DNA from: Candidatus Methylobacter titanis
GTDB lineage: Bacteria; Pseudomonadota; Gammaproteobacteria; Methylococcales; Methylomonadaceae
Length of the DNA stretch: 35,922 nt
Reading direction: 5' to 3'
Assembly (NCBI GenBank): GCA_029946125.1
Contig: JAQSDX010000037.1
Coordinates: 1-35,922, forward strand
Shown: positions 16,333 to 35,378 of the stretch, piece by piece
Layout: each line of letters starts with the position of its first letter
Numbering within the stretch: the first letter of the stretch is position 1
Position numbers and translations under genes: made by a program
The notes under the pieces: generated by a model
What the model was told of the DNA's origin: nothing
What the model saw: the letters and a program-made list of their open reading frames with translations, nothing else
The model's database searches: none

Positions 16333-17073
16333 TCATTTTGTTAGCTTGAATTGCAAGGTCTGAACGGCTCTTTGGGTAACCCTGACACCATTAACCATTT
16401 TCCCCTTGAATTTCCACCGACTAATAGCCTGTAGCGCGGCATTATCAAAGATATCGGCAGGTTGAGCCTCTATAACCACGGCATCTTCAACATCTCCGTC
16501 TGTGGTGATGGTAAATTCGACTTTAACCCAGCCCTCAATATGACGGTTAGCCGCCCCCCTCGGATATTTGGGCGGAACCCGTTCCAGCGGAATAACACCG
16601 GTACTGTCTCCACCAGAAGCGGCGCCCTTACCATCGACATCGCCTTGTGCATTGCCGGTTTCCCCAGTACCGCTTGCTGTCCCTGCTGTTCCTGCTGTGC
16701 CTGAGGCGTTCACCGCAGGCCCACTGGATTTTACCGCTTGTACCGGTATATCCAGCTTGGGCACATCCATAGCAGGTATTTCCTGCTTTACCACGGGCGC
16801 CTTTTGGATTACCGGCTGCTTTTTGGGCGGCGCTTTCTGACGTTGAGGAGGCGGCGGCTTATCCTGCACCTGCTCCACCTTTTTTTCCGGCGGTTTTTCG
16901 ATTTTAGGCTTTGGCGGTGGCGGCTCACGTTTTAAGCGCACAAACTCCATCATATTCAGGTGTTCGGTTTTTTTAACCACATGCTGGTTACTCATCAGCA
17001 TGAATTGCATCAGCCAGAACAGGCCCAGCGAGACAAGAATACCGGTCAATAAGGCGGCAACAGACGACTTCAC
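16333..17073 (-). CDS. tonB: TonB energy-transducing protein
   Basis: A 246-residue TonB. An N-terminal membrane anchor (residues ~7-27) is followed by a Pro/Lys-rich spacer (REPPPPKPKIEKPPEKKVEQ and on to ~100), a flexible Gly/Thr/Ala stretch and the C-terminal TonB domain (~160-246; ERVPPKYPRGAANRHIEGWVKVEFTI). It couples the proton-motive force from ExbB-ExbD to outer-membrane receptors. Start overlaps the exbD stop (ATGA). It is the last gene of DUF3450-ttpC-exbB-exbD-tonB, and by position is the obvious partner of the receptor at 25.3-27.6 kb. Confidence 0.94.
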   Translation of the reverse strand: MKSSVAALLTGILVSLGLFWLMQFMLMSNQHVVKKTEHLNMMEFVRLKREPPPPKPKIEKPPEKKVEQVQDKPPPPQRQKAPPKKQPVIQKAPVVKQEIPAMDVPKLDIPVQAVKSSGPAVNASGTAGTAGTASGTGETGNAQGDVDGKGAASGGDSTGVIPLERVPPKYPRGAANRHIEGWVKVEFTITTDGDVEDAVVIEAQPADIFDNAALQAISRWKFKGKMVNGVRVTQRAVQTLQFKLTK

Positions 17074-17486
17074 TGAGACTCCACTTCGGTAGCAATAGAA
17101 GCATTATTGATACCGGCCAGGCGAATCTGATCCATAACGCTGACCAGAACATGGGTTTTGGCCTCCCTGTCAGCGGTAATGACCACCGAACCTAACGGAT
17201 TTTCAGCATGCAACCTGGCGACATTGGCTCTAACCGCACGAATATCGACGACCTTCTTATCTATCCAGATTTCACCGGCTGGGCTAATCGCCACAATAAT
17301 ATGCGCCTGCTCCAGTTTCTCGGCAGTTTTAGCTTGAGGGCGATTAACATCAAGCCCTGATTCCTTAATCGAGGAACTGGTCACTATAAAAAAAATCAAC
17401 ATAATAAAAACGATGTCGAGCATCGGTGTCATATCAAGCTCAGCATTCTTGTCAGCTGAGGCACGGCTATTTTTGCGGCGCATCAA
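17070..17486 (-). CDS. exbD: ExbD/TolR family proton-channel subunit
   Basis: A 138-residue ExbD. A short cytoplasmic N terminus leads to a single transmembrane helix with the essential proton-carrying Asp24 (AELDMTPMLDIVFIMLIFFIVTSS), then a periplasmic domain (VVITADREAKTHVLVSVMDQIRLAGI). With ExbB it forms the motor that energises TonB. Starts 5 bases after the exbB stop and overlaps tonB by 4 bases. Confidence 0.95.
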   Translation of the reverse strand: MMRRKNSRASADKNAELDMTPMLDIVFIMLIFFIVTSSSIKESGLDVNRPQAKTAEKLEQAHIIVAISPAGEIWIDKKVVDIRAVRANVARLHAENPLGSVVITADREAKTHVLVSVMDQIRLAGINNASIATEVESQ

Positions 17487-17491
17487 TGCTC

Positions 17492-18016
17492 CTAGTGATA
17501 TTTTAATAAATCGGTCAGGTGATGTACTTCATCATTGACCAGTTCTTCAATACGTTTGCTGAAATAAAGTCCGCCTATCGCAATAATCATGCCGGCCATA
17601 GTCGGTATGGTGGCCTGGGATACGCCGGATGCCATGGCCCTGGCGTTGCTGGTGCCGGTCACCGACATCACGTCAAAGACGCTAATCATTCCTGTTACCG
17701 TTCCTAGCAAGCCCAACAACGGACACAAAACCACCAGCATATTGATAATAGCAATGGTTTTGCTCATTTTGATTTTAGCCTCAGAAATAATACATTCCCT
17801 GATGGATAAGGCATGTGGCGTATGCCGGTCTTCCCGGCTGTTCCACTGGTCTACCCAGAGAACCTTAAGTCCGGGATAGGTCAGCCTGAAAAAAAGGAAG
17901 CGCTCTACCACCAACGTCCATAAACAGATGGAGGTCAGCAGAATCATCCATAGCACATCGCCGCCGGTATTTAAGAAATTGCGTAGCGACTCCAGCAACG
18001 TTAACAACGCAGACAT
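17492..18016 (-). CDS. exbB: ExbB/MotA/TolQ-family proton channel subunit
   Basis: A 174-residue short ExbB (ExbB2 class). Transmembrane segment ~20-40, then the conserved pair of helices KTIAIINMLVVLCPLLGLLGTVTGMISVFDVMSVTGTSNARAMASGVSQATIPTMAGMIIAIGG that carry the polar Thr residues of the proton path. Its start overlaps the upstream ttpC stop by one base (TAATG). Presence of both a large TtpC and a short ExbB identifies the TonB2-type system. Confidence 0.94.
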   Translation of the reverse strand: MSALLTLLESLRNFLNTGGDVLWMILLTSICLWTLVVERFLFFRLTYPGLKVLWVDQWNSREDRHTPHALSIRECIISEAKIKMSKTIAIINMLVVLCPLLGLLGTVTGMISVFDVMSVTGTSNARAMASGVSQATIPTMAGMIIAIGGLYFSKRIEELVNDEVHHLTDLLKYH

Positions 18017-19344
18017 TACTTGCCTGCCCGGCGGCTGATTAAGCCGGCCGTCTGCTCATCGAGAATTTGCACCAATACCCGGCTGCGGGAAGCCACAATG
18101 CTGTGCAGAAACAATAAGGGAATGGCGACAGACAATCCCTGCACGGTAGTCACCAGCGCCTGAGAAATACCCTCAGCCATCAGTTTGGGGTCGCCGGTGC
18201 CGAACAAACTGATCGATTGAAACGTCACAATCATGCCGGTCACGGTGCCAAGCAATCCCAGCAAGGGCCCTACGGCAGCCACCAACTTAAGAATCGACAA
18301 GCCTTCTTCCAACGGCGGCACTTCCCGGGTAATCGCCTCATCCAGCAATAACTCCAGATTATCGGTATCCTCAGCATTGCCTTTCTCGACAACAGCAAAA
18401 ATGCGTCCCAGCGGATTGTCCTCATTAGCAACGGAGCTGTTCATTTGTAACGCCATTTTCCGGCTGACTGACGATAATTGAACCAATCTGACCATGCCAT
18501 AAATAAAACCGACCACACCCAAGATCATGGTTATGTAACCAATCAATCCGCCTTGCTGCAAACGTTCAATGAAACTCGGCGTTTGAATCAGCATGCCGAG
18601 AATAGCGCCCCGGGTAGGATCAAGGGCAATATCGGCTTGTCCTGATGTAGACTCTGCGAATTCTTCAGCCAAATCAAGAAACTTGCCTTCCGGTTGACGC
18701 GGCAGATCGGCCAGTTTCCCGGTTTCCGGCAAATAGCGCAAATATTGACCATCGGCCAGCGCATTGAAGACACCCACCCGCACCACTTTTGCCTGGCGCG
18801 GCTCGCCGGCTGCCGACAGGATTTCAGCATCGTAATGGACAACTTTGCCGGATTCGGTCATTTCCTGTTGCAGGGTAAACCATAATTGCTCCATCTGCGC
18901 CATGGACGGCAGGGCTTTGTTATCGGCAATCGCAGATAACACGCCAGTTCTGTCAGGGAACTCCGCAGAAATAATAGAATTTTTCAAGTTGGCTTTTAAA
19001 TCACCGGCGACTTGCCGGGCGACGCCGAATAGTTCGCCCAACGGCCCGCTACGCTCGGTCAGTTTGGCTTCCAGCTGGTTTAACTGTTCGCTGTTGGCCG
19101 TCAGCTGCGCCGTCAGTTGACTGCCGATGCTTTCCTGTTTACTCAGCTCCGCTTTGGCAGCGTCTACTAATTGTTGCTGTTTGCCGGGGTCGGCAACAAA
19201 CTCGGCTTCCCGAGCAGCATTGACTTTGCCTTCCTCGCCTTGAGTTTGTTTAATTTCCTGTAATAACTTATCCAGATCCAGGTGATCGGCAAAAGCAGTA
19301 TTGCAAAGCAATAGCATTAAAAAAACAAAGATCAGCTTATTCAT
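18016..19344 (-). CDS. ttpC: TtpC-like large MotA/TolQ/ExbB family protein
   Basis: A 442-residue protein: signal peptide (MNKLIFVFLMLLLCNTAFA), a ~230-residue periplasmic extension rich in charged residues and predicted coiled coil (AREAEFVADPGKQQQLVDAA, SKQESIGSQLTAQ...), a transmembrane helix (~272-292) and a C-terminal ExbB-like double helix (LKLVAAVGPLLGLLGTVTGM and LMAEGISQALVTTVQGLSVAIP). This matches TtpC of Vibrio TonB2 systems, which is needed for energising some receptors. It overlaps DUF3450 by 4 bases (ATGA) and exbB by 1 base. Confidence 0.9.
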   Translation of the reverse strand: MNKLIFVFLMLLLCNTAFADHLDLDKLLQEIKQTQGEEGKVNAAREAEFVADPGKQQQLVDAAKAELSKQESIGSQLTAQLTANSEQLNQLEAKLTERSGPLGELFGVARQVAGDLKANLKNSIISAEFPDRTGVLSAIADNKALPSMAQMEQLWFTLQQEMTESGKVVHYDAEILSAAGEPRQAKVVRVGVFNALADGQYLRYLPETGKLADLPRQPEGKFLDLAEEFAESTSGQADIALDPTRGAILGMLIQTPSFIERLQQGGLIGYITMILGVVGFIYGMVRLVQLSSVSRKMALQMNSSVANEDNPLGRIFAVVEKGNAEDTDNLELLLDEAITREVPPLEEGLSILKLVAAVGPLLGLLGTVTGMIVTFQSISLFGTGDPKLMAEGISQALVTTVQGLSVAIPLLFLHSIVASRSRVLVQILDEQTAGLISRRAGK

Positions 19345-20090
19345 TTGGCGGCCTCAGGTGCAGAAACGGGAACAATCAACATATCCGGCGCTGTTTCCTT
19401 GCGGGCAATACGCAAACCGTTACGAATCGAGTTGCTGTAACCGGAAGATAATGGTTGCCAGCGTTTTTCCTCTTTATCCCAGAAACCGGTTTCACTGCCG
19501 TCCAGCCGTTGGTAATAAAGGGCCACACGGCCCAGACGTAAAAAATCAACCGAACTGGTCACGCCGTTTAACTCGATATTCGCCTTATAGGCTTCAATCG
19601 TATTGCCGTATTCATTTTCAACCTGAAAGGCCTCCATAATCCGACGAAATTTTTCGGCATTGCTGACATCGGCTTTCGTGACCAGCTCTTTTAATTGGCT
19701 CAAACGCTGCTTGCGCTCTTTGGGTAAGAACGGCAAATCCAGCTGAATAAATTGGTCTAAGCTATCGAGCATGTGTACGATCAACGGCACGATTTCCTGC
19801 TTGGTGACTTCAATATCTTGCAGTTGTTTTTCCAGCGAGGCTTTTTCTTCAACCTGGGATGCCAGCATGTCTTTAATATGCTGATTATAGGTTTGCAAAA
19901 TATCCGTTTGCCGAGTAACTGAGTGGTATTGTTCCAGCAGCGTATTTTTTTGCTCGCCAGGCACCGCCGGCTGAGCTTTTGTTACTGCGGGCGCCGCAGC
20001 CTGTACCGATAACGCACAAACGCCTAGGAAAGCGGCGGCCAGACAGGTGTGATGTCGGCTAGAATTAAGCATAGTAGTCCAAATAGTCAT
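19341..20090 (-). CDS. DUF3450 periplasmic coiled-coil protein
   Basis: A 249-residue DUF3450 protein, regularly the first gene before ttpC-exbB-exbD-tonB. It has a signal peptide (cleavage around SVQA-A), a coiled coil (~60-115: VTRQTDILQTYNQHIKDMLA ... EKASLEKQLQDIEVTKQEIV) and a C-terminal part with GYSNSIRNGLRIARKETAPDM. ATG at 20072 is a possible alternative start with a slightly better upstream GGA; either leaves a plausible signal peptide. Its role is not established; the coiled coil may bridge TtpC to TonB. It begins 128 bases after the ABC permease gene on the same strand. Confidence 0.85.
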   Translation of the reverse strand: MTIWTTMLNSSRHHTCLAAAFLGVCALSVQAAAPAVTKAQPAVPGEQKNTLLEQYHSVTRQTDILQTYNQHIKDMLASQVEEKASLEKQLQDIEVTKQEIVPLIVHMLDSLDQFIQLDLPFLPKERKQRLSQLKELVTKADVSNAEKFRRIMEAFQVENEYGNTIEAYKANIELNGVTSSVDFLRLGRVALYYQRLDGSETGFWDKEEKRWQPLSSGYSNSIRNGLRIARKETAPDMLIVPVSAPEAAK

Positions 20091-20217: not shown

Positions 20218-21573
20218 TTACGGCTTTGCGAAGCGCTTGCGCAACATGATCAGCCCCCCTAATAAAAAAATGTCGGCCAGCAACTGCCTTACCAGCACCG
20301 TCCAAGCTGTGACCGCAGTCAGCAACGGTTTAAAGATCGGCTGTTGCTGATAATCCGAAGTCGACATGGCTTGCTTGCCGATGATTCTGCGGACAAAAAA
20401 CGCCCGCCACCGGTCTTCAAATTGATTAACCGTGTCAATGTATTCGGCATAACGGGGCGCATCGATACCCGCCAGACGGTCGGCCGTCAACACGACGGCC
20501 AAGCCTGGCGACAGTGCGGACCAACGCTCCATAAACTCGAAATGCGCTTTCCGAACCTCATCGAAACGATACATCAACGGCCGCACCTTACTATCAAGTT
20601 CCAGATTGGCGGGCAGACCGGCAATTTCGCGCGGAGGCTCTGTTACCGGAGGAATGTCGGGATGCGCCCGATACCAGACTGACAGCAATCCGGCTTGCTG
20701 TGTAGCCGTTTGCGCCTGAACACGCCGAATATCGACAATCGCTTCGAGCCGGGAGGGCATGGCTTGCTCGCCGTTTGCCGCCCAGCTTAAACCCGCCGGT
20801 AGCGCAAAGGTCGTGACCAGCCATACGCCTAGCAAGCCTACCGCCGCCGCACCCGATGAAACCGGCAGCAACAAAAACAGCCCGGCAATTGCAATCCACA
20901 ACCCGGTAAACAGCCCGACAAAAACCAGCCAATAACTTGCCGCGCAAAGGGTCGAACCGGAGTCCAGCATAAACGCAAACAGCGATGCCGCGACCACAGG
21001 CACCAGCACCATTACCCAACGCACCACGAGTGCGGTAAATACCAACCGCCAAGGCTGGGCCATTTGCGCGCAAACCAAACGCCAGACGCCCCGTTCCCGA
21101 TCTTCCTGCACCAGACCGTAACTAACCGCTATTACGGTCAACGGCAGCAATAACGCCAGCACAGTTGCAAAATCGGGCAAGCCCAGTTCGCGCAGCAGCG
21201 GATTGAACAGCTGATCGCTGTTACGGCCATCGGTATGACGACTGCGGCTTGAGATGCGCAGCTCTGAATCGAGCAAATCGACTTGGCGCACGCTCAAGGC
21301 CAAACCGCCCAGCGCCGGAAGGCGCACCGTTGTACTATCGGCCAGTTTGCTGGTATAGCCGCCTTGGCCGGTACCCGGCGCATCGTGCATTTCCGCCCGC
21401 ACCTGCGTGCCTGCGGCGGTGTGTTGCGACGGCAAGGCTCTGGCACGAAACTCACTGGCGGCAAGTCCCGAACTTATTGCGCTAGCCGCTAATAAAATAA
21501 AGAATGCGGCAATAATCCACAAATTGACCGGATTGCGGATGAAGCGCCGCCATTCGGTTGGTAACAACGGCAT
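20218..21573 (-). CDS. ABC-2-type transporter permease, DUF3526-like (second copy)
   Basis: A 451-residue membrane protein: an N-terminal helix (NPVNLWIIAAFFILLAASA, ~15-35), a large periplasmic loop (~40-140), then a block of five helices (~150-265), a second loop and a last helix near the C terminus. The EDRERGVWRLV motif is the usual ABC-2 coupling helix segment. The open frame extends to 21630, but ATG at 21573 makes a TAATG overlap with the upstream permease, so I use that start. It is the partner permease of the next gene and the ATPase, as in NosFY-type exporters. Confidence 0.85.
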   Translation of the reverse strand: MPLLPTEWRRFIRNPVNLWIIAAFFILLAASAISSGLAASEFRARALPSQHTAAGTQVRAEMHDAPGTGQGGYTSKLADSTTVRLPALGGLALSVRQVDLLDSELRISSRSRHTDGRNSDQLFNPLLRELGLPDFATVLALLLPLTVIAVSYGLVQEDRERGVWRLVCAQMAQPWRLVFTALVVRWVMVLVPVVAASLFAFMLDSGSTLCAASYWLVFVGLFTGLWIAIAGLFLLLPVSSGAAAVGLLGVWLVTTFALPAGLSWAANGEQAMPSRLEAIVDIRRVQAQTATQQAGLLSVWYRAHPDIPPVTEPPREIAGLPANLELDSKVRPLMYRFDEVRKAHFEFMERWSALSPGLAVVLTADRLAGIDAPRYAEYIDTVNQFEDRWRAFFVRRIIGKQAMSTSDYQQQPIFKPLLTAVTAWTVLVRQLLADIFLLGGLIMLRKRFAKP

Positions 21574-22985
21574 TATGGTTTCAGCCTCTTGGCGGAAAAC
21601 AGCAACGCAATCAGCGCGGCGACCAGCCAAGCCAGCAATACCAGCAGATCGGCCAGCGCATGATGCAACGCAAAGCCCACCGGGGGCGACTGATAACGGA
21701 ATGCCTTAACGCTGGCCCAGTCGTCATCATGGCCCTGAGCGCCGTGCTCCGTGCCGTGGCTGCGTTCACGATCCCAGTCATCGGTCAGGCCGATAAAATA
21801 ATGCCGGTAATTTTCGGCGGCATCCTCAAAATGACGCTGATGCGCCAAATCCATGCCCGACAATGTCATCGACACCGAGCGCATCGCGATGCTCGGGCCG
21901 AGCAGCGAGGCGATATGGATAAACCGGCTTTGGCGTTCGAACGCATCACTCAACCTGTCGAAATGCAGGGCATGAACCCGTGCGGAATAACCGTCATTAA
22001 AACTGCGTTTGAGCGCGGCATAGCCTACCGGCAAATCTTCAATCCGTGTCGCAGCGTACTGTTTTAACAGTTGAACATTGAATAACGCCTCCCGCTTTTC
22101 ATGATCGCCATCGTTATCCAGACCCTGCTGAATATCGTCTTTGATCGCCGCCCAAAACGCCGTCGCAGCGGGTATCGGCATCCACGCCTCTGCAGCAGCA
22201 GCGCCCAATCTCGGCGCAATCAGCACACTGCCCGACCAGAAAGCCAACAACGCAAACAAAGCCAGACGGCTGCTGTGAAAATGGATTGAGGTGGACATAG
22301 CCAAGGCCGCGAATACCGCATAATAGATAAAAAAACTAGCGCCCAACGCCAACAACCTGAGACTGTCGTCACCGGTGAGGTCGAAATTACGATACAAAAT
22401 AATCATCGCAAGCCCCATTGCCGGCAGCAACACCAGCAAAAAAGCCAGCAACAAACCGATAAATTTGCCCAGCAACAGTTGCATAGCCGATACCCCGAGA
22501 CTGTGCAACATGCGCAACGTACCTTGCTCCCGCTCCAAAGTCACCGCATTAAAAGCCAGCGCCACGACCAGCAGCGGCAACAATGCAACCAACACAAAAC
22601 CGGCGCTGGCCTGCCCGAAGCGACTGGCTAATCCCTGGTCGGCCGCCGGACTGAAACGCGCGCCGTTGCGTTTGTGCGGCTCCAGCCAGAGCGTTTGACC
22701 GGTATAGTGTCTCAAGCCGGGATCTATCGATGCCAGCGGCGAATCCGGCTTAAACACATAAATGCCGAAATGCGCCGCCGCATGCGGGTTTTTAACGCCT
22801 TGCGTATCCCATTGTTGCTTGGCGCTTGCGCCCACGGCTTGTTTTTCCTGCTGCAACTGCTGATGTTCGCTGATGGAAGCCAGAAAAAAGCCGCTTAATA
22901 GCGCGAACACCGAAAAGGCCAACACCAACAACCTTCCGTCCCGCACTACCGCCAACAGCTCCTTGCGGATAATCGCAACAATCAC
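21573..22985 (-). CDS. ABC-2-type transporter permease, DUF3526-like (first copy)
   Basis: A 470-residue permease of the DUF3526/ABC-2 class: one N-terminal helix (~22-38), a long extracytoplasmic loop (~40-125), five helices (~130-290) with the LEREQGTLRMLHSLG coupling segment, a second large loop, and a C-terminal helix. The second loop carries a cluster HGTEHGAQGHDDD (~405-417), a possible metal-binding patch that is not a general feature of ABC-2 permeases. The start codon is GTG overlapping the ATPase stop (GTGA). Similar permease pairs are seen with TonB receptors; substrate unknown. Confidence 0.88.
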   Translation of the reverse strand: MIVAIIRKELLAVVRDGRLLVLAFSVFALLSGFFLASISEHQQLQQEKQAVGASAKQQWDTQGVKNPHAAAHFGIYVFKPDSPLASIDPGLRHYTGQTLWLEPHKRNGARFSPAADQGLASRFGQASAGFVLVALLPLLVVALAFNAVTLEREQGTLRMLHSLGVSAMQLLLGKFIGLLLAFLLVLLPAMGLAMIILYRNFDLTGDDSLRLLALGASFFIYYAVFAALAMSTSIHFHSSRLALFALLAFWSGSVLIAPRLGAAAAEAWMPIPAATAFWAAIKDDIQQGLDNDGDHEKREALFNVQLLKQYAATRIEDLPVGYAALKRSFNDGYSARVHALHFDRLSDAFERQSRFIHIASLLGPSIAMRSVSMTLSGMDLAHQRHFEDAAENYRHYFIGLTDDWDRERSHGTEHGAQGHDDDWASVKAFRYQSPPVGFALHHALADLLVLLAWLVAALIALLFSAKRLKP

Positions 22986-23707
22986 AGCAAGCCCCGCGCG
23001 TGCGCCAGATATTTGTGTTCCAACTCATCGTGCGCCACGGTGTGTGCATCGAACTCTTCAACCAGACGACCGGCTTTCATGATGCCGATACGGTCGGCGA
23101 CCTGCTTGGCATTAAACAGATCATGAGTCGCCATCAGCACCGCCATGCCCAGATCGGCGGCCGCCCGTATGCGCCGGGCAAAATCATTGGCCGCACTGGG
23201 ATCGAGCCCGGAGGTCGGCTCATCCAGCAACATGACTTTCGCCTGTTTTGCCGAGGCGATAGCCAGACCGACTTTCTGGCGCATACCCTTTGAATATGTC
23301 GAAACGCGCCGGTCATGAGCATCGCTTTGCAAGCCGGTGTTCGCCAGCAAATCGTGCGCGTGCTGCCGGGATAGGCGGATATCAGCCAGCGTACAGAAAA
23401 AACTCAGATTTTCCACGCCGCTCAGGTATTCATACAACGCCACATTTTCCGGCAGATAGGCCAGCTTGGCGCGCACCACCGCCGGGTTTTGCTCAGGCGA
23501 TTCGCCATCAATAAAGACATTGCCGGAGGTCGGCCGATTGAAGCCCAAAAAGGTATTAATGGTTGAGGTTTTCCCGGCGCCATTGCCGCCCAGCAAGGCA
23601 TAGACGCAACCGGCCGGAACCGATAAATCGAGCCCATCGATTGCGCGATAGTTTTTATACTTGACCACCAGTTGTCTGGCCTCAAGCAGGGGTTTATTTG
23701 CAGACAT
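22982..23707 (-). CDS. ABC transporter ATP-binding protein (NosF/CcmA-like)
   Basis: An ATPase of about 241 residues: Walker A GGNGAGKT, Q-loop-like YLPENVALY, signature YSKGMRQKVGLA, Walker B VMLLDEPTSGLDP and switch His in ATHD. Close in type to NosF, which with NosY/NosD acts in copper-site assembly of nitrous-oxide reductase, and to other ABC-2 exporter ATPases. The frame opens at a TTG (23713), but ATG 23707 (MSANKPLLEAR) is preferred. Overlaps the first permease by 4 bases. Whether it exports a substrate or powers maturation of a periplasmic protein cannot be told. Confidence 0.92.
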   Translation of the reverse strand: MSANKPLLEARQLVVKYKNYRAIDGLDLSVPAGCVYALLGGNGAGKTSTINTFLGFNRPTSGNVFIDGESPEQNPAVVRAKLAYLPENVALYEYLSGVENLSFFCTLADIRLSRQHAHDLLANTGLQSDAHDRRVSTYSKGMRQKVGLAIASAKQAKVMLLDEPTSGLDPSAANDFARRIRAAADLGMAVLMATHDLFNAKQVADRIGIMKAGRLVEEFDAHTVAHDELEHKYLAHARGLL

Positions 23708-23787
23708 AATCAATTTTTAGATGATTCTGGAAAAATCATTTGATCCACGAAAATTATTTTGATGAGTTCATTATTGGAAATTAAGCC

Positions 23788-27635: not shown

Positions 27636-27974
27636 TTCTTTTAATTTTTATAGATGTGACTGATTGCTATTCATAAGCATTTTCCATGCCAAGCTAAAAA
27701 GCACATCAGAAGCCCCTCTCCGAACCACCTCGAAGATTACTTTGCTCCTTTATAATCAATTAATTATATTTCTATGACGCATTATTTGCCATCCCAATGC
27801 GTTGCGCCGGTAATGCGTGCCAGACTTTATTGTGAGCCTGTTTTTAATCAAAACACGGCATATAACCTATTTTAGTAGGTTATATGCCACAGTTTAATCA
27901 ATCTTCCTTGCTGGTTTAAACCTCGGCCTTTAGGCCATAGCTATCTACACAAGTGATCGATGTTCTGCGCTATA
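27636..27974 (-). promoter_or_regulatory. Receptor upstream region
   Basis: A 339-base gap between apbE and the receptor start. It has the shared bipartite element (27857-27898), an A/T-rich TTATAA region near 27750, and a small palindrome GGCCT-TT-AGGCC (around 27927-27938) after apbE. A long 5' untranslated leader is possible. I checked for a cobalamin riboswitch and saw no conserved core. Confidence 0.45.
27857..27898 (-). promoter_or_regulatory. Bipartite inverted-repeat element, copy A (upstream of receptor)
   Basis: Plus strand: GGCATATAACCTA (27857-27869), loop TTTTAG, TAGGTTATATGCC (27876-27888): perfect 13-base arms. Then CACAGTTTAAT up to 27898. A second copy of the same framework lies at 35549-35590 with identical 16-base spacing between the outer blocks. 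It is 220-250 bases upstream of the TonB-receptor start and could be a regulator binding site or a member of a dispersed repeat. Confidence 0.6.
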
Positions 27975-28901
27975 TCACGGCTGATGATTCCGACCCGACA
28001 ACGAACCGCCGGTTTCGCCCTGTACATTGACCCATAAATGGGGTAATCCCAAGCTTTCCAGCCAGTCGGGACCGCTACTTTCCTTGAGCATTGCGATGGT
28101 AGAAGCGCTGCCCGCAACTACACAGAAATCACCCACCACGCTAACCGCCGCCAAATACCGTACTGGCCAGCCGGTTTTGGGGTTGAGCACATGTCCGTAA
28201 CGTACGCCATCCACACTGATACAACGTTCGTAATCACCACTGCTGGCAAGCGCGCCTTCCCGCAATAAAATGGTTCGCATCACGGCTTCTTTGTTACGGG
28301 GATCACGGATACCGACTCGCCACGGACTGCCATCGGCGCGCGGGCCAATCACTTTTATGTCGCCGCCTAAATTAATGACGCCATGCCGGATTCCGGCTGC
28401 GCCACATAATGCGGCCGCACGGTCAACGGCGTATTCTTTGACTATGCCGCCAAAATCGATTTCCATGCCGGGGCTTGAAAATGCCAGCACGGGTGGTACC
28501 CAACACAATTTGTGCCAGCCGACTTTATCGAGCAATGCCTGAATTTGTGCCTGATCCGGCAATTTACCCCGATCAAAGCGCCAGGCGCGGCGCAAGATGC
28601 CGGAAGTGATGTCGAATAGGCCGTCGCTCTGTTCATAACAGGTTGCCGCATAATTCAATAATCCTGCGGTTTCATCATCGACCGTGATACGACCGCCGGT
28701 GGCCGCCACGCGATTAATAGCCGCAAGAAAACTGTCGCTACGGTAACGCGAATACAGCGCTTCGAGCCGGTATACATCGGTGATAGCCGCATCGGCAATC
28801 TGTTTGGCTCTGGACGGACTGTCGGCATAGAGTTGTAGGTCGCAAGGCGAACCCATCGCCTTGAAGGCATAGCGATAATAGCTCAAACGCTTGGCTGTCA
28901 T
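27975..28901 (-). CDS. apbE: ApbE-like FAD:protein FMN transferase
   Basis: A 308-residue ApbE-family protein. Conserved blocks: YSRYRSDSFLAAINR, DGLFDITSG, MEIDFGGIVKEYAVDRA, VINLGGDIKVIG, SGDYERC and YGHVLNPKTGWPV. ApbE moves FMN from FAD onto a Thr/Ser of target proteins, usually in the periplasm. Two oddities: there is no signal peptide or lipobox, and the segment that normally reads A-D-A-x-S-T near the C terminus, with a Mg2+-binding Asp, reads AGSASTIAML. It follows the DUF3570 gene by 30 bases, an arrangement commonly seen for this subfamily. Target protein unknown. Confidence 0.85.
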   Translation of the reverse strand: MTAKRLSYYRYAFKAMGSPCDLQLYADSPSRAKQIADAAITDVYRLEALYSRYRSDSFLAAINRVAATGGRITVDDETAGLLNYAATCYEQSDGLFDITSGILRRAWRFDRGKLPDQAQIQALLDKVGWHKLCWVPPVLAFSSPGMEIDFGGIVKEYAVDRAAALCGAAGIRHGVINLGGDIKVIGPRADGSPWRVGIRDPRNKEAVMRTILLREGALASSGDYERCISVDGVRYGHVLNPKTGWPVRYLAAVSVVGDFCVVAGSASTIAMLKESSGPDWLESLGLPHLWVNVQGETGGSLSGRNHQP

Positions 28902-28931: not shown

Positions 28932-31703
28932 TCAAAACGCATAACTCCAGGTAGCTGACAGTGCGCCCTCACGCGGTAGCTGATAACCGTTGACATCGTC
29001 GCTGACCGGCTGTAGCCATTCGAAACTGAGGTTGTTGCCCTGTAGACTCCCGGTTGGCACAAAAGCGTTAATACCAAAACCGGCATCCCAATAACGCCCG
29101 CCATGATTGCCGGGATAATCCACCGGCCCCAGTTTATTGAATGTCCCGTTATACTCGTTCCTAATCGAACCTTGTACGGTATAAACGCCGCGCACCGAGG
29201 TTGACAGCCAATTTAACAGGCTGTAACTGCCCCAGGCGGTGGACTGAAACATATCGCCAAAAGCGAAACCGGTTTCGTTGTTATGCTCAAGACGTACGGT
29301 GCCGTTAAGCTGTGCACCCCAGGAATACTTATCCAGTTTTCCGGTATAAGTAATGCTCGGCTTGAGATCCCAAGTGCCGCTGCCCAACTGCATACCGTAA
29401 TGCTGAAAACCGGCATCGATTCGATGGGTATCCCTGAATTTGACATCAACATCGCCGGTCGGCGCACTGACGCCCAAGGTGCCATGCAGATGATGACCTG
29501 CCTGATCGAACAGCTTGACCATCGCATAAATGCCGGTATCACCGATACCGCTGGTGGTGTGCTCATGCAAGGTGTGGTGATTGATCAGTGATTGCTGATC
29601 AAAAGTTGCCGATGGTGCGCCATTCAGCTCTCGTGTGGACATGTTCATATCGACGAACTGAGGCATCAGCATCAGTGTTAACCAATCGGTCGGGGCGTAC
29701 ATAAAATCGAGCATGATCATATTCATGTTCATTCCGCCCGGCGCGGTAAAGCAGGAATCGTCACCACAGCCATTTTTTACGATAGTTTGATCGCTGACCT
29801 TATTGCTACCCTGCAACATATCGCCAGACTGAGTGCTGTACATATAACGGGCGCCGAACATCACGTCACCGGCTTTATCCATCATGTGATCGAACATGAC
29901 ACCGGCGGGTGCGTGGCCGCCGTGATGACTATGCCCGCTATGTTCGCTATGTTCGCTACCGGCCAGAGATAGTGCGGATAAATCGACCTTCAGAACCGCA
30001 TTAACCGTGTAATAGTTGTAATCGGCATAAGCGCCCTCACCGCCACCGCCCAGTTTCATCGAGCCTGCGTGGGCATAGTATTCGGCAGCCGCCTCAAAAC
30101 TGACGCCTTTAGCGAATTGTTTGCTGACGGTAAGTCCGCCACTTAACGCGCCAAATCCCGATAGCCGATGGTCGCTGGAATAATGGCTGGGCAGTTTATT
30201 GCGGTCAAACGGAATGGTTTTATTGATCGGATTAACGGCAATTTCGTCGACTATTTTCCCGCTGGCATCCACCAAGTTAAAGTCTTTATCACGAAAATAA
30301 ACATTGCCATTATTGGGATTGCCCGCTTCAACATAAATAGGCCTTCCGCTTTGATCAACAGCGGCTTTACTGAGGGCCTGATGGGATACCAGGTAAGGCG
30401 TGTAAAAATCGGCGGCATCCTGCGAGTAATAACGCACTTTCGGAGTGAGCGTCCAACCATGACCCACCGGCTGAACCCAATCGGCTTCAAAGGTATGAGC
30501 ATTGACGCCCCAGTCATCGTGAAAAAAGCGGTAATCAAAATGCAAGGCCGCATCCAGACCATTGATATATTGAACATAACGCAAGTTTTCAGTCCATTGA
30601 TTACGCTCGTTGGGACGCTTTTCAAGTAAACCGATAGACACGCCCCTCAGCACTTCACCGGTCTGCGTCGGATCAATGAACGCCGCTTCCACCACCTTAT
30701 AGGGATTTGCCATATAACCGGTACTGCGGGTATAGCCAATGCCCGCTTCCAGTAGCGCGGTTTCGTTCAGCACCTGGGTCAGGCCCAGCGAGGTTCCCCA
30801 GTCCTGTCGATTGCCGCGTAGGACATTATTTCTATCCTCTTTTTGAATTTGGCCGCTGCCGGAGGTGTTATTGTAGGAGTCAAAGCCACGGCCGACATCA
30901 AAGATATAGGGCGTGGCATCATGATCAAGTATGGCGTGAGTATCGCTGTTGGTGTAACTCAAACCCAAGTTCAAACTGGTCAGCTTCTGGTTAAAATCCC
31001 AACGTCCGGCCACATTGCCAAACCGCGATTCATAGTCATTTTCCACAGAAATGCCGCCACCGACATCCAGCGCCGCCTCATCCCATTCGTAACTTAGTTT
31101 GACATCGCCTTGTTTGCGAATCTCTGGTGAGGCAGAAGAAAGCGTATGCACTAGCTGCTTGTCTTTTACATACTCTCCGGTTAAGGCATTCTGTCTCAAT
31201 GGGTTCAATTGTTTGTCGAACAGCACGCCATTGTTTTGCAGAAAAGGCGTTGCCCCTGAAATCACACCGCCTTCTTTATTGCCGCCGAAAGAAAGCGGCG
31301 CAGTTGCGATAGGCGTCGCCCCACTCCAAGTATCCTGGGTGTAATTAAAGGCAAACTTCAAGCGATCGGACAACTTGATTTTAGAGCTGCCCAACAGACT
31401 GTCCACGACAATCGGGTCAAACCTGCTGTTTTCACCGAAAAGATTACGATTGCTCTCTTCATAATAGCCATATAAAAAACTGACTTCTTCGTCCGCAGCC
31501 TGAGCCGTTACAGGCATCAAGCCGGGCAACGACAACGCAGCGGCGGTCAACATCTGCAATGATGCACTCACTGCCGCTACCGGTTTCGGCTTGGCTGTGC
31601 GCGCTAACAACCGCGCGCTCAGCTGCCTATAGCCCAGTGTCAATAGCGAGCTACCGGCGTTTTCGGCATGAAGCTTGGTGAATATGCGTTTAATAACAGC
31701 CAC
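28932..31703 (-). CDS. DUF3570 beta-barrel fused to a His/Met-rich outer-membrane domain
   Basis: A 923-residue protein. Residues ~50-575 are a DUF3570 barrel (MLTAAALSLPGLMPVTAQAA, then SFLYGYYEESN...), predicted outer membrane. At ~583-597 a His run (HSEHSGHSHHGGH) leads to a second domain (~600-923) with HMMDKAGDVMFGARYMYST, GGMNMNMIMLDFMYAP and PQFVDMNMS, matching the His/Met-rich putative transporter barrels found near copper genes. It ends in SATWSYAF with the terminal Phe. The frame reaches 31862, but GTG 31703, with GGAGG 8 bases upstream and overlapping the DUF4266 end, is the best start. Most DUF3570 proteins are ~400 residues, so this is an unusual two-barrel fusion. Confidence 0.82.
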   Translation of the reverse strand: MAVIKRIFTKLHAENAGSSLLTLGYRQLSARLLARTAKPKPVAAVSASLQMLTAAALSLPGLMPVTAQAADEEVSFLYGYYEESNRNLFGENSRFDPIVVDSLLGSSKIKLSDRLKFAFNYTQDTWSGATPIATAPLSFGGNKEGGVISGATPFLQNNGVLFDKQLNPLRQNALTGEYVKDKQLVHTLSSASPEIRKQGDVKLSYEWDEAALDVGGGISVENDYESRFGNVAGRWDFNQKLTSLNLGLSYTNSDTHAILDHDATPYIFDVGRGFDSYNNTSGSGQIQKEDRNNVLRGNRQDWGTSLGLTQVLNETALLEAGIGYTRSTGYMANPYKVVEAAFIDPTQTGEVLRGVSIGLLEKRPNERNQWTENLRYVQYINGLDAALHFDYRFFHDDWGVNAHTFEADWVQPVGHGWTLTPKVRYYSQDAADFYTPYLVSHQALSKAAVDQSGRPIYVEAGNPNNGNVYFRDKDFNLVDASGKIVDEIAVNPINKTIPFDRNKLPSHYSSDHRLSGFGALSGGLTVSKQFAKGVSFEAAAEYYAHAGSMKLGGGGEGAYADYNYYTVNAVLKVDLSALSLAGSEHSEHSGHSHHGGHAPAGVMFDHMMDKAGDVMFGARYMYSTQSGDMLQGSNKVSDQTIVKNGCGDDSCFTAPGGMNMNMIMLDFMYAPTDWLTLMLMPQFVDMNMSTRELNGAPSATFDQQSLINHHTLHEHTTSGIGDTGIYAMVKLFDQAGHHLHGTLGVSAPTGDVDVKFRDTHRIDAGFQHYGMQLGSGTWDLKPSITYTGKLDKYSWGAQLNGTVRLEHNNETGFAFGDMFQSTAWGSYSLLNWLSTSVRGVYTVQGSIRNEYNGTFNKLGPVDYPGNHGGRYWDAGFGINAFVPTGSLQGNNLSFEWLQPVSDDVNGYQLPREGALSATWSYAF

Positions 31704-31905
31704 AACCACCGCCTCCAGCAGCGCTGCTACCGGTAGCAGCCTCCCGGCTACCGTAAATATGCGCATTAAAAGTGCTTTGTAAGGGGTAAGGTTCCAAAGC
31801 CATCTGCGGCTTGGCAAGCGTGCCTCGCTGCCATGGCGCCACCGGGGAACAGCCCGAAACACAGATAGACAAGGCCAACAACAGCGCTTGCTGTATTGTC
31901 TTCAT
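31690..31905 (-). CDS. DUF4266 lipoprotein with C-terminal Gly/Cys tail
   Basis: A 71-residue lipoprotein: MKTIQQALLLALSICVSGC signal with lipobox VSGC, then PVAPWQRGTLAKPQMALEP, the DUF4266 signature, and the C-terminal tail GGGGCGCY. The two Cys plus the lipidated Cys are its only cysteines in the mature protein, and the flexible Gly/Cys tail is a likely metal- or flavin-associated site. The start at 31905 gives a proper signal peptide; the frame continues to a TTG at 31938 without good reason. It overlaps the DUF3570 start, so the two are translationally coupled. Family function is unknown. Confidence 0.85.
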   Translation of the reverse strand: MKTIQQALLLALSICVSGCSPVAPWQRGTLAKPQMALEPYPLQSTFNAHIYGSREAATGSSAAGGGGCGCY

Positions 31906-32005: not shown

Positions 32006-32521
32006 TTATTTCAGTTCCGGCTTCTCTGCCAGCAACTGCCCGGCGACAAGCCGAAGCTCCTCGGCTGCTCCCTCGCGGAACCCTAAATGGATATGACGAA
32101 TGACACCATTACGATCGACCAGATAGGCAGAAGGCATGGCTTTGACATCAAAGTCCCTGGCACACTGCTCACTTTCATCCGCCACCACGGTAAAATTGGC
32201 TGGATATTTAGCCAGAAACGTCTTGGCATCCTCGGGCGCCTGATCCAGATTAACCGCTATCATCTGCAATCCGCTATCGTTAAGATCACGATGCAATTCA
32301 TTCATGAATGGAAAGGATTTAGCGCAGGGAGGACACCAGGAAGCCCAGAAATCCACATAAACTACTTTGCCGTGGAATTGTTGCAGGGTATAGCGTTGTT
32401 TATCGTTGATCGACGACAGTTCGCAATCAGGCACTTTGCTACCAATCTCTGCAGCAAATACCGCTGGTATTTGGGTAAGCGCCAGCAGGGTGCAGAGTCG
32501 TATTAATATTCGTAGGTTCAT
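32006..32521 (-). CDS. TlpA/ResA-like periplasmic thioredoxin
   Basis: A 171-residue secreted thioredoxin-fold protein: signal peptide (MNLRILIRLCTLLALTQIPA, cleavage after VFA-A), catalytic WCPPC in VDFWASWCPPCAKSFPFM, cis-Pro region KAMPSAYLVDRNG. TlpA/ResA proteins reduce disulfides of exported proteins, for instance before metal or heme insertion. It carries a Glu-Gln-Cys (SEQCARDF) as an extra cysteine. Placed between the N-terminal-His protein and DUF4266, as is common in DUF3570 clusters; the Cys tail of DUF4266 is a candidate substrate. About 100 bases separate it from each neighbour. Confidence 0.92.
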   Translation of the reverse strand: MNLRILIRLCTLLALTQIPAVFAAEIGSKVPDCELSSINDKQRYTLQQFHGKVVYVDFWASWCPPCAKSFPFMNELHRDLNDSGLQMIAVNLDQAPEDAKTFLAKYPANFTVVADESEQCARDFDVKAMPSAYLVDRNGVIRHIHLGFREGAAEELRLVAGQLLAEKPELK

Positions 32522-32626: not shown

Positions 32627-33085
32627 TTATTGAATTTGCAATACAGTAATGTCAGTGCCTGTATGTTTGTTGTCACTGGTCACGCAATGCCAGATGACAT
32701 TGAAGTCCCTCGCGCCAGCGCTGGTTTTAGTGACCGATATATAGTACGTGCCGGGGCCGCCGTTAAGGCTGACACCCGGGCTATAGTTATCGTCTCCTGA
32801 AACGGGATCGGTGCTGGTCGTCATTTGTAGTCCCTTGTAAATATGAAAGTTCACCAATAACCCAGGTACCGGACTGGAAGAGTCCTTAACCTTACCGAAA
32901 AGATGGTGCGGCACACCGTTACCGTCGTCAGTACACGTTACTGCGGCAAGATCGGTAGCACTTGCATTATTTCCTGCAACATCTATTAACGCACCCGCGT
33001 CATGAGCAAATGTGATACCGGTATGCCCTACTGCGACCAAAATCGATAACGCTACAAACGCTTTTTTTAAATATGTGCTTTTCAT
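32627..33085 (-). CDS. Secreted protein with predicted mature N-terminal His, unknown family
   Basis: A 152-residue exported protein: signal peptide ending GITFA, so cleavage at TFA|H would leave His at the mature N terminus (HDAGALIDVAGNNASATDLA). The mature part has two Cys (VTCTDD and IWHCVTSD), likely a disulfide, and His residues in VPHHLFG, NFHIYKG and IWHCV. It has a beta-sandwich look. I do not recognise a named family. N-terminal His is a copper ligand in His-brace proteins (CopC, LPMO, YcnI), so copper binding is a testable idea. Good Shine-Dalgarno (GGGGA). Between STN-HEAT and thioredoxin genes in the island. Confidence 0.75.
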   Translation of the reverse strand: MKSTYLKKAFVALSILVAVGHTGITFAHDAGALIDVAGNNASATDLAAVTCTDDGNGVPHHLFGKVKDSSSPVPGLLVNFHIYKGLQMTTSTDPVSGDDNYSPGVSLNGGPGTYYISVTKTSAGARDFNVIWHCVTSDNKHTGTDITVLQIQ

Positions 33086-33202
33086 AAATATCCCCGTATG
33101 GCTAGCGTACTAGCAAAAAATAAACACTAAACAAGTATTGGTCGTCTCTTTCCCAAGCCATCGACTTAGGTAATCGAGCTGTTGTTAACTTACTGACAAT
33201 CA

Positions 33203-34057
33203 TTACAAAGCAGTAGCGGCTTTCTCAAGCCGTTTCAATCTTATTTCCGCCAACTGCCGTACCGTCGCATCGCTATCATTGAGCGCCTGTTGCAGCAAGG
33301 CTTCATCGCTACCGGCATTATCTACCGCCGTTAGCCGTACCGATACATGACTATCATGCATCGCCTCGCGCAAAGCAGTAGCGGCTCCAGCGCCTTCGCG
33401 TTGCGCCAGACTGGAAAGCGCGCGCACGCGTACCATCGCATCGGGGTCTGACAGCGCAGCTACCAGCGTTTGCTTAACGGCCGCATCACCTTTGCGCCCG
33501 CCTGCCAACAAACGCCCGATTGCCTCCACCCGTTCGGCAGGCGTGTTAGAGCTCGCCATTTTTAACAAGGTATCCGTTTGATCAGGCTCTGCGTTTGTAT
33601 TATCTGTCGTCAATGAGAATGGCTGCTGAGTTTCCGCTGATGCGTGCAAAAGCGAATTCTTCTTACCCGTTTCAGATTTTGCACCAATCACCCAAACCTC
33701 CTCAATCTGCCGCAGGCCATCAACGTTTGACAGTTCTCGTGCATAGCGAAAAACAAGGTCGGCTTTACCCACTAGCAGGCACTTCAGCACCTGTTTTACG
33801 CTGGTTCCTACACAATTTGCAGTCACCAAATCATCCGGCAATACCGAATAATTCATCCGTACCCCTGTTTTATTGGCTATGCTGTCAAGCACTTTAGCCA
33901 ATGGCGCCTGTCTGACTTTCAGTTGCAGCTCAGCATCCACTTCTTTAGTGATAACCAGCCAGCCTTGATCACCTGAATTTTTAATTTCTACAGCCGCTAA
34001 TAACGCCCCGGGCATCAACAGGGTCAAACAGGTCATCCAGAATTTAATTGCCATCAT
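33203..34057 (-). CDS. Periplasmic STN-domain and HEAT-repeat protein
   Basis: A 284-residue protein: signal peptide (cleavage near LLAA), an STN-like (secretin/TonB N-terminal) domain around residues 40-100 (LKVRQAPLAKVLDSIANKTG, VGTSVKQVLKCLLVGKADLVFRY), a Ser/Thr-rich linker, then HEAT/PBS-lyase-like repeats (165-284: AIGRLLAGGRKGDAAVKQTL, ALSDPDAMVRVRALSSLAQ, AMHDSHVSVRLTAVDNAG, ALNDSDATVRQLAEIRL). STN domains bind partners in secretins and in TonB-receptor sensing; HEAT arrays bind proteins. The combination suggests a soluble adaptor. Start ATG ATG is preceded by GGAGG. First gene after the terminator of the YcnI-like gene. Confidence 0.75.
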   Translation of the reverse strand: MMAIKFWMTCLTLLMPGALLAAVEIKNSGDQGWLVITKEVDAELQLKVRQAPLAKVLDSIANKTGVRMNYSVLPDDLVTANCVGTSVKQVLKCLLVGKADLVFRYARELSNVDGLRQIEEVWVIGAKSETGKKNSLLHASAETQQPFSLTTDNTNAEPDQTDTLLKMASSNTPAERVEAIGRLLAGGRKGDAAVKQTLVAALSDPDAMVRVRALSSLAQREGAGAATALREAMHDSHVSVRLTAVDNAGSDEALLQQALNDSDATVRQLAEIRLKRLEKAATAL

Positions 34058-34374
34058 GACAGCCCCTCCAGAAACTTAAGATCAACATTCCGACAGTCTG
34101 GCCTCACAGATGGATATAAACGCATTATCAAATAACCTAATATCATACCAAAAAGAGCGTGAAACACGGGAAGCTATTATAAGCCTTCCTGTGCTTCATG
34201 CTCTTTCAGGTAGTAAACCTGTACTTAATATAAGCTCAAGCCACTCATCGAAAAGTTCTCAAATCATCATTCATTTAACAAAATTTTTAGCATATTACTG
34301 CCTATTTACTTGGGCGGCAAACAAGAAAACGATAAATACGCTGAAGTTAACGCACTACGTTAGTAAAAAAGAAA
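34058..34374. other. Gap with a long imperfect inverted repeat
   Basis: Between the STN-HEAT gene and the terminator. It holds a 22-pair imperfect hairpin: arms at 34152-34173 and 34185-34206 (for example AAAGAGC with GCTCTTT and GGGAAG with CTTCC). It is best paired on the plus strand, where two positions become G-U pairs. A half-site resembling the shared element (TAGGTTATTTG on the minus strand, near 34128-34138) lies about 70 bases upstream of the STN-HEAT start. The 92-codon plus-strand frame through this region shows no sign of being a gene. Confidence 0.45.
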
Positions 34375-34402
34375 GTCTACGGCGATAGCTATCGCCGTAG
34401 AC
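34365..34402 (-). terminator. Strong minus-strand terminator after the YcnI-like gene
   Basis: A perfect 28-base palindrome (34375-34402; arms GTCTACGGCGATAG and CTATCGCCGTAGAC) is followed on the minus strand by TTTCTTTTTT. It separates the YcnI-like transcript from the downstream genes. Confidence 0.85.
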
Positions 34403-34505
34403 TGATTTCAGTATGACGACCCATATCATCATTGGTAATCATACTGACTACTGACGCAACCCGCGCGGTTGCCTGTAGTAACGCCTTAGATGAATATTGG
34501 GAACA

Positions 34506-35378
34506 TTAGTGCCAATAATTTGTGCCATTTTGATGCGTACCTGACCAGATAGGCATCTCGGCATTAATCTGTTTAGCAGATGGGTAAACATGAATATCAT
34601 CACCTGCACCCGCATTACCGGTACAGCCACTTGGAAGCGGATTTGTGGTCAAGTTTCTAGTTACTTTCAGAGTGGCTGGTGAACTCCAGCCATCGCCTTT
34701 AATCGTATGAGCGGCATCTTGATAACCATCAAAATTAGAATACTTAGCGGCAACATCAAAAGGTTGTCCGGGCACACCGGCAAAGTTGGGAATGGGCGAC
34801 CAATAAAGAACCTCTTCATCCGTGGCAACAGTGCTAGGCGTATCAATGGAGCAATGGTCAGAAATAGCTGCATAAAACGTTACTGTACGGGCACAGGATG
34901 CCGGTTTAATGGTCACAGCAGCTGAGGCGAACTCAACTTGAACGGGGGTGGAGATAGTTTGATCATAAGCTTTTCCGCCCGCCCAAAATCCATCGATATT
35001 ATTAAGAGGATCAGCTTTATATTGGTATTCAGGGAACGCGCCACCATTACGAATCATAACCCCGATACCCGCTAATGGAGCATAAAAATCAGTAGCTGCG
35101 GTGGTGCTATAGACTTTTCCTGCTCCTGAGTCTACGCCAATAACAGGCGTATAAGATACGGCATTCGGAAATATCACATTCGTTCCAAAGGTAGCTTTTC
35201 TAGCTGTACTAGGAGGGCAACCATGCCCAATATTTACAGCGTTGTGAACCTTGACGCCTTCGGCGACACTTGACGTTTCAAAACGGGTATGGGCAAACGT
35301 ACCCTGACTAACGAAGACCATCGCGGCAGTCGTTAGTGAGGATGCGACCAGTTTTTTAAAAGTTATTGGTTTTGACAT
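34506..35378 (-). CDS. YcnI/DUF1775-like secreted protein with predicted N-terminal His
   Basis: A 290-residue exported protein. Signal peptide ends VSQGTFA, so cleavage at TFA|H exposes His1 (HTRFETSSVAEGVKVHNAVN). The region NIGHGCPPSTARKATFGTNVIFP matches the 'vpHGC..sPT..v.v.iP' core of YcnI-like DUF1775 domains, in which the N-terminal His and a conserved Glu bind copper; Glu at mature position 5 fits. It is longer than a plain YcnI (about 130-200 residues). The C-terminal half has extra Cys (SCARTV, DHCSID, SGCTGN). Start 35378 has a strong AGGAGA; the frame upstream to 35465 is not needed. It carries its own terminator, and a bipartite element lies 170-210 bases upstream. Confidence 0.75.
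   Translation of the reverse strand: MSKPITFKKLVASSLTTAAMVFVSQGTFAHTRFETSSVAEGVKVHNAVNIGHGCPPSTARKATFGTNVIFPNAVSYTPVIGVDSGAGKVYSTTAATDFYAPLAGIGVMIRNGGAFPEYQYKADPLNNIDGFWAGGKAYDQTISTPVQVEFASAAVTIKPASCARTVTFYAAISDHCSIDTPSTVATDEEVLYWSPIPNFAGVPGQPFDVAAKYSNFDGYQDAAHTIKGDGWSSPATLKVTRNLTTNPLPSGCTGNAGAGDDIHVYPSAKQINAEMPIWSGTHQNGTNYWH

Follow-up and report, generated by a model that had tools for sequence, protein, structure and literature searches.

The window analysed here is a stretch of 35,922 nucleotides from Candidatus Methylobacter titanis, and is the whole of contig C77 (JAQSDX010000037.1) in a 3.5-Mb assembly. Positions 16333–35378 hold an unbroken run of 17 consecutive minus-strand genes, confirmed by a check of the open reading frames (ORFs) and genes. 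A first-pass annotation, made from the sequence alone, had read this island as one complete, dedicated system for the uptake and handling of a metal, probably copper. All the genes are present, and most have the families expected, as assigned by a Pfam search of the window proteins. The stretch divides into two separable modules. Module A consists of a TonB-dependent receptor, a BNR-propeller lipoprotein carrying Cys and His, a DUF3526 ATP-binding cassette (ABC) transporter, and the set DUF3450-TtpC-ExbB-ExbD-TonB. Module B consists of proteins with an N-terminal His, a thioredoxin, DUF4266, DUF3570, and ApbE. The features are listed from the contig edge inwards, with palindromes scored by a position weight matrix (PWM).

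35868–35922, no strand: end of an insertion sequence at the contig edge, with an inverted repeat at 35868–35883 and an 8-bp target duplication at 35860–35867, which is the same in contig C139
35563–35586, minus: distal 24-bp palindrome before the N-His operon (pattern match; PWM score 27.9; 0 in 100 shuffles)
35541–35564, minus: proximal 24-bp palindrome before the N-His operon (pattern match; PWM score 23.4)
35465–35482, minus: sigma-54 −24/−12 element TTGGCACAGAAAATGCTT (zero-mismatch pattern match)
34506–35378, minus: secreted protein of 290 amino acids (N-His305 family), predicted mature N-terminus His; no Pfam family
33203–34057, minus: HEAT-repeat protein (Pfam HEAT_2)
32627–33085, minus: secreted protein of 152 amino acids (N-His152), predicted mature N-terminus His; no Pfam match
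32006–32521, minus: TlpA/ResA-like thioredoxin (Redoxin, AhpC-TSA; ResA model, below its cut-off)
31690–31905, minus: DUF4266 lipoprotein with a CxC tail, GCGC (PF14086, 2.8e-21)
28932–31862, minus: DUF3570 protein (PF12094, 1.3e-119), true start probably within the ORF
27975–28901, minus: ApbE-family flavin mononucleotide (FMN) transferase (PF02424, 2.4e-74)
27872–27895, minus: distal 24-bp palindrome before the receptor (pattern match; PWM score 24.2)
27850–27873, minus: proximal 24-bp palindrome before the receptor (pattern match; PWM score 21.9)
27675–27692, minus: sigma-54 −24/−12 element TTGGCATGGAAAATGCTT (zero-mismatch pattern match)
25308–27635, minus: TonB-dependent receptor, 775 amino acids, without Cys (Pfam Plug and barrel)
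23788–25041, minus: BNR-propeller lipoprotein with a conserved Cys/His set (BNR hits below the curated cut-off; predicted propeller fold)
22982–23713, minus: ABC ATPase (PF00005)
21573–22985, minus: ABC permease A (Pfam DUF3526)
20218–21630, minus: ABC permease B (Pfam DUF3526)
19341–20090, minus: DUF3450 protein (PF11932, 1.4e-76)
18016–19344, minus: large ExbB-domain protein, which we take to be of TtpC type (MotA_ExbB)
17492–18016, minus: ExbB (MotA_ExbB)
17070–17486, minus: ExbD (PF02472)
16333–17073, minus: TonB (PF03544)

Most of the first-pass gene calls were borne out. The receptor, the ApbE-like enzyme and the thioredoxin have the domains listed above, and the energiser was found by Pfam as DUF3450, two MotA_ExbB proteins, ExbD and TonB_C. 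The lipoprotein described as having a Gly/Cys tail is the DUF4266 protein, and the DUF3570 protein does have a Met/His-rich C-terminal part of 346 residues. Two names had to be dropped. The ABC transporter had been called NosFY-like, but its ATPase is better matched by ABCA ATPases (3e-51) than by NosF (1.3e-34); permease A has no match in the PDB, and no NosD family occurs among the Pfam hits of the 17 genes. The protein at 34506–35378 had been called YcnI-like, and has no DUF1775 match in Pfam up to an E value of 0.1.

The best evidence that the stretch forms one system is provided by shared promoters. TTGGCAY-N5-WTGCTT elements, with GG-N10-GC spacing, lie upstream of the window receptor gene and of the N-His305 gene, and are the sole zero-mismatch matches in the window; when up to one mismatch is allowed there are four matches, against 0.46 expected. 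Each element is preceded by a pair of 24-bp palindromes set 22 bp from each other (model consensus AAACTGTGTTATATAACACAGTTT). The scores of these four lie between 21.9 and 27.9, no other place in the window exceeds 5.9, and by shuffling none is expected. Modules A and B thus appear to share control in the window, by way of tandem palindromes and a sigma-54 element. A GG-N10-GC element with an upstream activator site is what marks a sigma-54 regulon, and both are present here as sequence patterns.

The palindrome pattern was then searched for in the whole genome, allowing two mismatches, and matched nine places: the four in the window, two before a gene for a receptor resembling the copper receptor OprC, one on contig C119, and a weak match on each of C67 and C120. 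Seven of the nine therefore lie in front of either window unit, the OprC-type gene or a thioredoxin gene. The last of these is TlpA-like, and begins approximately 55 bp after the C119 site, which has a second site beside it. Outside the Methylobacter loci, 35 of 104 unique BNR genes are followed immediately by a gene for a thioredoxin of this family; inside those loci the figure is 0 of 19.

The same promoter type is found in Methylococcales loci, counted after removal of duplicates. The sigma-54 element is upstream of 26/61 receptor, 6/6 OprC-like and 12/15 N-His305 genes (pooled, 44/82), against 47/1278 other genes. The element together with the palindrome is upstream of 24/61, 6/6 and 12/15 respectively (pooled, 42/82), against 10/1278 others, although the palindrome's share of these counts is circular, the model having been trained on the gene classes tested. 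The sigma-54 part of the counts is free of this circularity, as is a held-out test on 263,049 bases outside the training set. These contain 20 palindrome sites, compared with 0 in five mononucleotide shuffles, and 19 of the 20 are upstream of OprC-family, thioredoxin or DUF1775 genes; the held-out loci were chosen for holding such genes, and the thioredoxin locus was found with the pattern itself. One of the DUF1775 genes is a true YcnI gene in genome G069, with a palindrome upstream and an OprC-family receptor beside it. Palindromes were also seen upstream of other secreted N-terminal-His proteins and of an N-terminal-His MauG-type protein (L221, L223 and L222:3719-5977).

The island very probably includes a further gene upstream, namely the OprC-type receptor gene, which is located near the edge of contig C139 beside trmB-thiG-aroG. 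The receptor matches the A3 profile with 1217.5 bits, and keeps the motifs CANHM and HSM, which match the CxxxM-HxM copper site described for OprC (PMC7558416). A relative of it aligns with OprC over the CxxxM stretch (7.8e-22) and scores below the TIGR01778 cut-off. By homology, and by possession of CxxxM and HxM as putative copper ligands, the C139 gene is classed with OprC/NosA. Both C139 and the window terminate in an insertion sequence whose ends read CTGATGTTACGCA. The genome contains 17 such ends; the 13 that were read are no more than 57 bp from an edge of the fetched stretch. When these 13 are matched by the 8 bp that flank them, three left-right pairs result, one of them being C139 and the window (TTAAGCAG). 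This common duplication very probably places the OprC-like gene immediately upstream of the island. The ends of C139 and the window do not overlap exactly, and have no k-mer in common near them. The insertion sequence, with its 8-bp target duplications, breaks many contigs, the window (35868–35922) among them; its ends are also found on C1, C3, C5, C6, C83, C87, C100, C101, C124, C126, C137–C139, C143 and C144.

The arrangement in relatives agrees with this position. In several sister genomes cargo is inserted between aroG-thiG-trmB (named from reading of their sequences) and a hyp171-peroxiredoxin pair, and the same pair flanks the window island. In G227 the slot reads aroG, OprC-like, N-His305, HEAT, N-His152, thioredoxin, DUF4266, DUF3570, ApbE, DUF3450, TtpC, ExbB, ExbD, TonB, hyp171, peroxiredoxin, and lacks the receptor-BNR-ABC part; the thioredoxin and DUF4266 were located by tblastn. 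The best reading is that the copper-acquisition regulon proposed below occupies one chromosomal slot, from aroG-thiG-trmB to the peroxiredoxin gene. At 15694–16209 of the window is a gene for a highly conserved 171-residue protein with a weak AP2-like match, which adjoins the island in many relatives. Further away in the window are a kinase and regulator pair at 9923–11831, presumably RegB/RegA-like (the kinase alone was searched in Pfam), and, by eye, a DUF262-like gene with a MazE/MazF-like pair at 86–1839.

The island is not a fixed gene set, and in this respect the idea of one complete system has to be modified: what stands is the shared promoters in the window. BNR is found in 159 of 251 Methylococcales genomes and DUF3570 in 167. 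Among 19 Methylobacter genomes, BNR occurs in 16 and DUF3570 in 10. Five of the seven Methylobacter genomes with both have them less than 20 kb apart on one contig: the two modules adjoin each other, or almost do so, in the source genome of the window, G074 and G241, and are separated by 7 kb in G214 and by 17 kb in G210. In G112 and G172 they are on different contigs. By eye, among the matches listed, they are far apart in most non-Methylobacter genomes, which the first-pass annotation had named as a finding against its reading. The unity of the modules is thus that of a regulon and not of conserved gene order. In G120 and G152 the DUF3570 module adjoins a BNR paralogue. ABC genes are found in 9 of the 16 BNR-bearing Methylobacter loci, and as energiser these loci have either the DUF3450 set or a TonB gene accompanied by a small ExbB/ExbD-like pair.

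The BNR lipoprotein had been singled out for its Cys and His residues, and these are strongly conserved: C227, C230, H257, C284 and H300 are kept in 58 of 58 sequences, C229 and H338 in 57, and H287 in 56. The closest matches in GTDB contigs are mostly from Methylobacter, the best being 84% identical. An AlphaFold2 model (mean predicted local distance difference test score 87.8) is a propeller. In fold searches its low-identity matches include sialidases, PLL lectins and CylK; the best 50 rows of each search show no conspicuous copper protein, which says little, and the A4 profile found no PDB sequence. OprC-like genes occur near BNR in Methylobacter (G054, G218, G222, G228) and in three betaproteobacterial loci, from Sulfuricella (L193), Sulfurimicrobium (L189) and a Nitrosomonadales metagenome-assembled genome (L186), and all 12 OprC-like rows near BNR keep both motifs, some rows being the same gene in two loci. 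The clusters in L193 and L189 also contain a further receptor, a His-rich protein (weak DUF4198) and a DsbD_2 protein. That in L193 additionally has a 4Fe-4S NapH-like protein, and upstream of it a kinase that looks similar to the one in the window.

Module B corresponds, as judged from its proteins, to a described flavinylation cluster, which the first-pass annotation had not named. DUF3570 proteins are flavinylated at two [S/T]GA[S/T] motifs, with thioredoxin and DUF4266 as partners, and covalent FMN was shown for a Chlorobium homologue (PMC8238504). The window protein has two SGAT motifs, at ORF residues 180 and 202, and two such motifs are found in 15 of 25 clustered DUF3570 relatives. Its 346-residue C-terminal part has no Pfam match. 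A relationship of this part to the barrel encoded upstream of BNR in L076, L082, L086 and L212 was considered after a tblastn hint of likeness in L076, and was dropped when phmmer did not confirm it. A signal peptide followed by His (X.X|H) was recognised, using a simple expression, in 20/25 N-His152, 12/16 N-His305 and 6/6 third-family proteins, compared with 21/219 in a set of signal-peptide-like proteins that includes the three families. The expression misses some proteins and mispositions others, among them the two window proteins, which read TFA|H by eye. N-terminal His is a known copper ligand, the histidine brace (PMC10952591).

A candidate activator was found by way of genus g30, which we take to be Methylococcus, where two genomes (G021, G049) have a short sigma-54 activator gene near an OprC-like gene. 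Its best match in the source genome is at C69:35377-36333 (57% identical), the next best being a longer protein at 47%. The C69 protein has 319 residues, with a sigma-54 domain and a Fis-type helix-turn-helix and lacks a sensor domain, and its gene is just downstream of that for a DsbD_2 membrane protein with an HCxGMCG motif. Relatives (E 1e-95 or better) occur in 218 of 251 Methylococcales genomes. In at least seven genomes (G057, G069, G098, G114, G190, G206 and G250, picked by eye among the matches listed) the activator operon and an OprC-family receptor gene are arranged divergently, with a palindrome between them in six of these. The f7 receptor-BNR loci L072, L073 and L085 have no palindrome site scoring 14 or more, and their genomes (G031, G006, G023) have no activator relative at E 1e-95. 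We propose the C69 protein as the enhancer-binding protein for the palindromes, the pairing of activator with site being suggested by these sequence patterns.

Our main conclusion is that the island is a sigma-54-controlled copper-acquisition regulon of Methylobacter, to which we give a probability of roughly 0.7. Copper as the ligand, the direction of transport, the reduction and indeed all of the biochemistry are inferred. The first-pass proposal of copper uptake thus gains indirect support, and the link to copper is made because of the co-regulated OprC-like receptor, the OprC-like genes near BNR, the Cys/His set of BNR, the N-terminal His, and loci resembling CRC1 of Methylococcus capsulatus Bath. 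CRC1 extends from MCA0421 to MCA0447, contains multihaem cytochromes, the TonB receptor MCA0440 and the MauG-family protein MCA0444, is induced by copper limitation, and has sigma-54 promoters marked (PMC4831470). In the literature searched, MCA0440 was found in this source only. The palindrome is upstream of the OprC-like gene in all four g30 (family f4) genomes examined (G003, G021, G041, G049). In G021 and G049 this gene lies between a multihaem cytochrome operon and a gene for a two-haem-motif protein, with an ExbB-like gene alongside; G041 also has multihaem genes, and in G003 none are next to the OprC-like gene.

Several observations weigh against this conclusion, besides the circular palindrome counts and the choice of held-out loci noted above. 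The g30 loci are matched to CRC1 by layout. No recognisable partner follows the weak palindromes on C67 and C120, a reversed-pattern search of the source genome gave one match, one of the 20 held-out sites is off-target, and no sigma-54 element was seen before the C119 thioredoxin gene. Among the seven divergent activator-receptor pairs, one lacks the palindrome, and the receptors of all seven have HxM but not the Cys of CxxxM. BNR and DUF3570 co-occur in Methylobacter no more often than by chance (7 of 19 genomes, 8.4 expected). A Fur box is reported beside the sigma-54 site of CRC1 (PMC4831470), and a few BNR upstream regions beat shuffled sequences for a Fur box (15, 15 and 14 of 19 positions, against at most 13). 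The window receptor is not of OprC type: TIGR01778 is not among its hits, and it has no Cys.

These last points bear on whether the island might import another metal or metal complex, such as an iron-siderophore, haem or a lanthanide, with the copper-type features being incidental. Among family models the window receptor scores best, though far below cut-off, against haem/haemoglobin receptors, and in the PDB it matches siderophore/colicin receptors across the plug region. Some DUF3570 clusters contain a ferrous iron transporter (PMC8238504), and LanA is a lanthanide receptor of these bacteria (PMC12482762). Apart from the BNR regions, one receptor and one N-His305 region reach 14/19 for the Fur box, which is one or two positions above shuffles. 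Against this, the co-regulated receptor has the OprC copper motif, most classes of upstream region are not above shuffled sequence, and the intergenic regions of the window itself reach no more than 13/19 for the Fur box. We consider another metal unlikely.

A role of copper handling in protection, export or cuproenzyme assembly, rather than acquisition, seems to us improbable to a higher degree. Many ABC-2 type permeases export, and the DUF3526 permeases are of this type. Furthermore, under a strict neighbour rule, in which truncated or unclustered receptors are overlooked, 57 of 123 unique BNR genes have no receptor-type gene directly upstream. However, TonB receptors with an energiser import, and CRC1, which related loci resemble, rises under copper limitation (PMC4831470). 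We give least credence to the view that two unrelated modules happen to be side by side, module B being a general extracellular electron-transfer system. The modules do occur independently within the genus, and DUF3570-ApbE-thioredoxin-DUF4266 clusters are widespread (PMC8238504), but the same rare promoter type precedes both modules in the window, both elements are present at 12 of the 15 N-His305 genes that stand first in module B across Methylococcales loci, and the DUF3570 module has been found beside a BNR paralogue.

If the island is a copper-acquisition regulon, it could work as follows. The sensorless activator on C69 would bind the tandem palindromes and turn on the units under copper scarcity. 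Copper would be collected by the N-terminal-His proteins, either on the surface or within the periplasm. Electrons would be moved outward by way of the thioredoxin, DUF4266 and flavinylated DUF3570, possibly with reduction of Cu(II) to Cu(I). Import of copper or a copper complex would fall to the OprC-type receptor together with the window receptor, powered by the neighbouring TonB complex, and the BNR lipoprotein would take Cu(I) on its Cys/His site, kept reduced by a TlpA-like thioredoxin. The role of the ABC transporter is the least certain step. A bolder version is possible, though we would not yet favour it: that there is one Methylococcales sigma-54 regulon for reductive copper uptake, in which a flavinylated DUF3570, supplied by thiols of the periplasm, reduces surface Cu(II) for OprC-type and partner receptors, replacing the surface multihaem cytochromes of the Methylococcus copper-limitation cluster, and that BNR is a new family of periplasmic Cu(I) acceptors shared with Gallionellaceae, Nitrotoga and sulfur oxidisers. 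Functional redundancies between flavinylation and cytochromes have been described between species (PMC8238504), which fits the presence of cytochromes in the CRC1-like loci and of DUF3570 in Methylobacter.

Parts of the island resemble known systems. The DUF3450-TtpC-ExbB-ExbD-TonB order is that of TonB systems of Vibrio and Shewanella, while several sister genomes instead have the TonB gene with the small ExbB/ExbD-like pair. With the clusters described in PMC8238504, the island shares the same four proteins, the two DUF3570 motifs and the C-terminal CxC of DUF4266; it adds the Met/His-rich part of DUF3570, the N-terminal-His proteins and the promoter type of copper-type receptors, and has no DsbD-type gene among its 17. 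The C139 receptor falls in the OprC-like group, whereas the window receptor is of a different group. For CRC1 (PMC4831470) the points of likeness are a TonB receptor, a MauG-family protein and reported sigma-54 promoters, and the loci that resemble CRC1 carry an OprC-like gene and the palindrome; in CRC1, multihaem surface cytochromes take the place of the DUF3570 module of Methylobacter. The Bordetella CruR-CrtA-CrpH operon (PMC9426467, PMC13038864 and PMC12914433) likewise has copper import that depends on TonB, together with a linked redox protein of the membrane, but the island has a sigma-54 type promoter, and Pfam finds no DUF2946 leader and no PepSY_TM among its 17 genes. Within the literature searched, nothing was found on DUF3450 with copper and TonB; in full text, DUF3526 was not mentioned, and DUF3570 and DUF4266 were each mentioned in one source, the same for both.

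The island is real, is judged by its promoters to be jointly regulated, and most probably serves to acquire copper by a variant form of TonB-dependent uptake. Particulate methane monooxygenase makes methanotrophs dependent on copper, and to our knowledge the way in which those outside the methanobactin producers fetch it is largely unknown. A defined regulon, composed of an activator, its DNA site, receptors and periplasmic proteins, would be relevant to the copper supply of these climate-relevant methane-eating bacteria. It would also help to assign a function to DUF3570, to the widespread BNR family and to the DUF3526 transporters. If the flavin step is true, a flavoprotein would do in Methylobacter what surface cytochromes may do in a relative.

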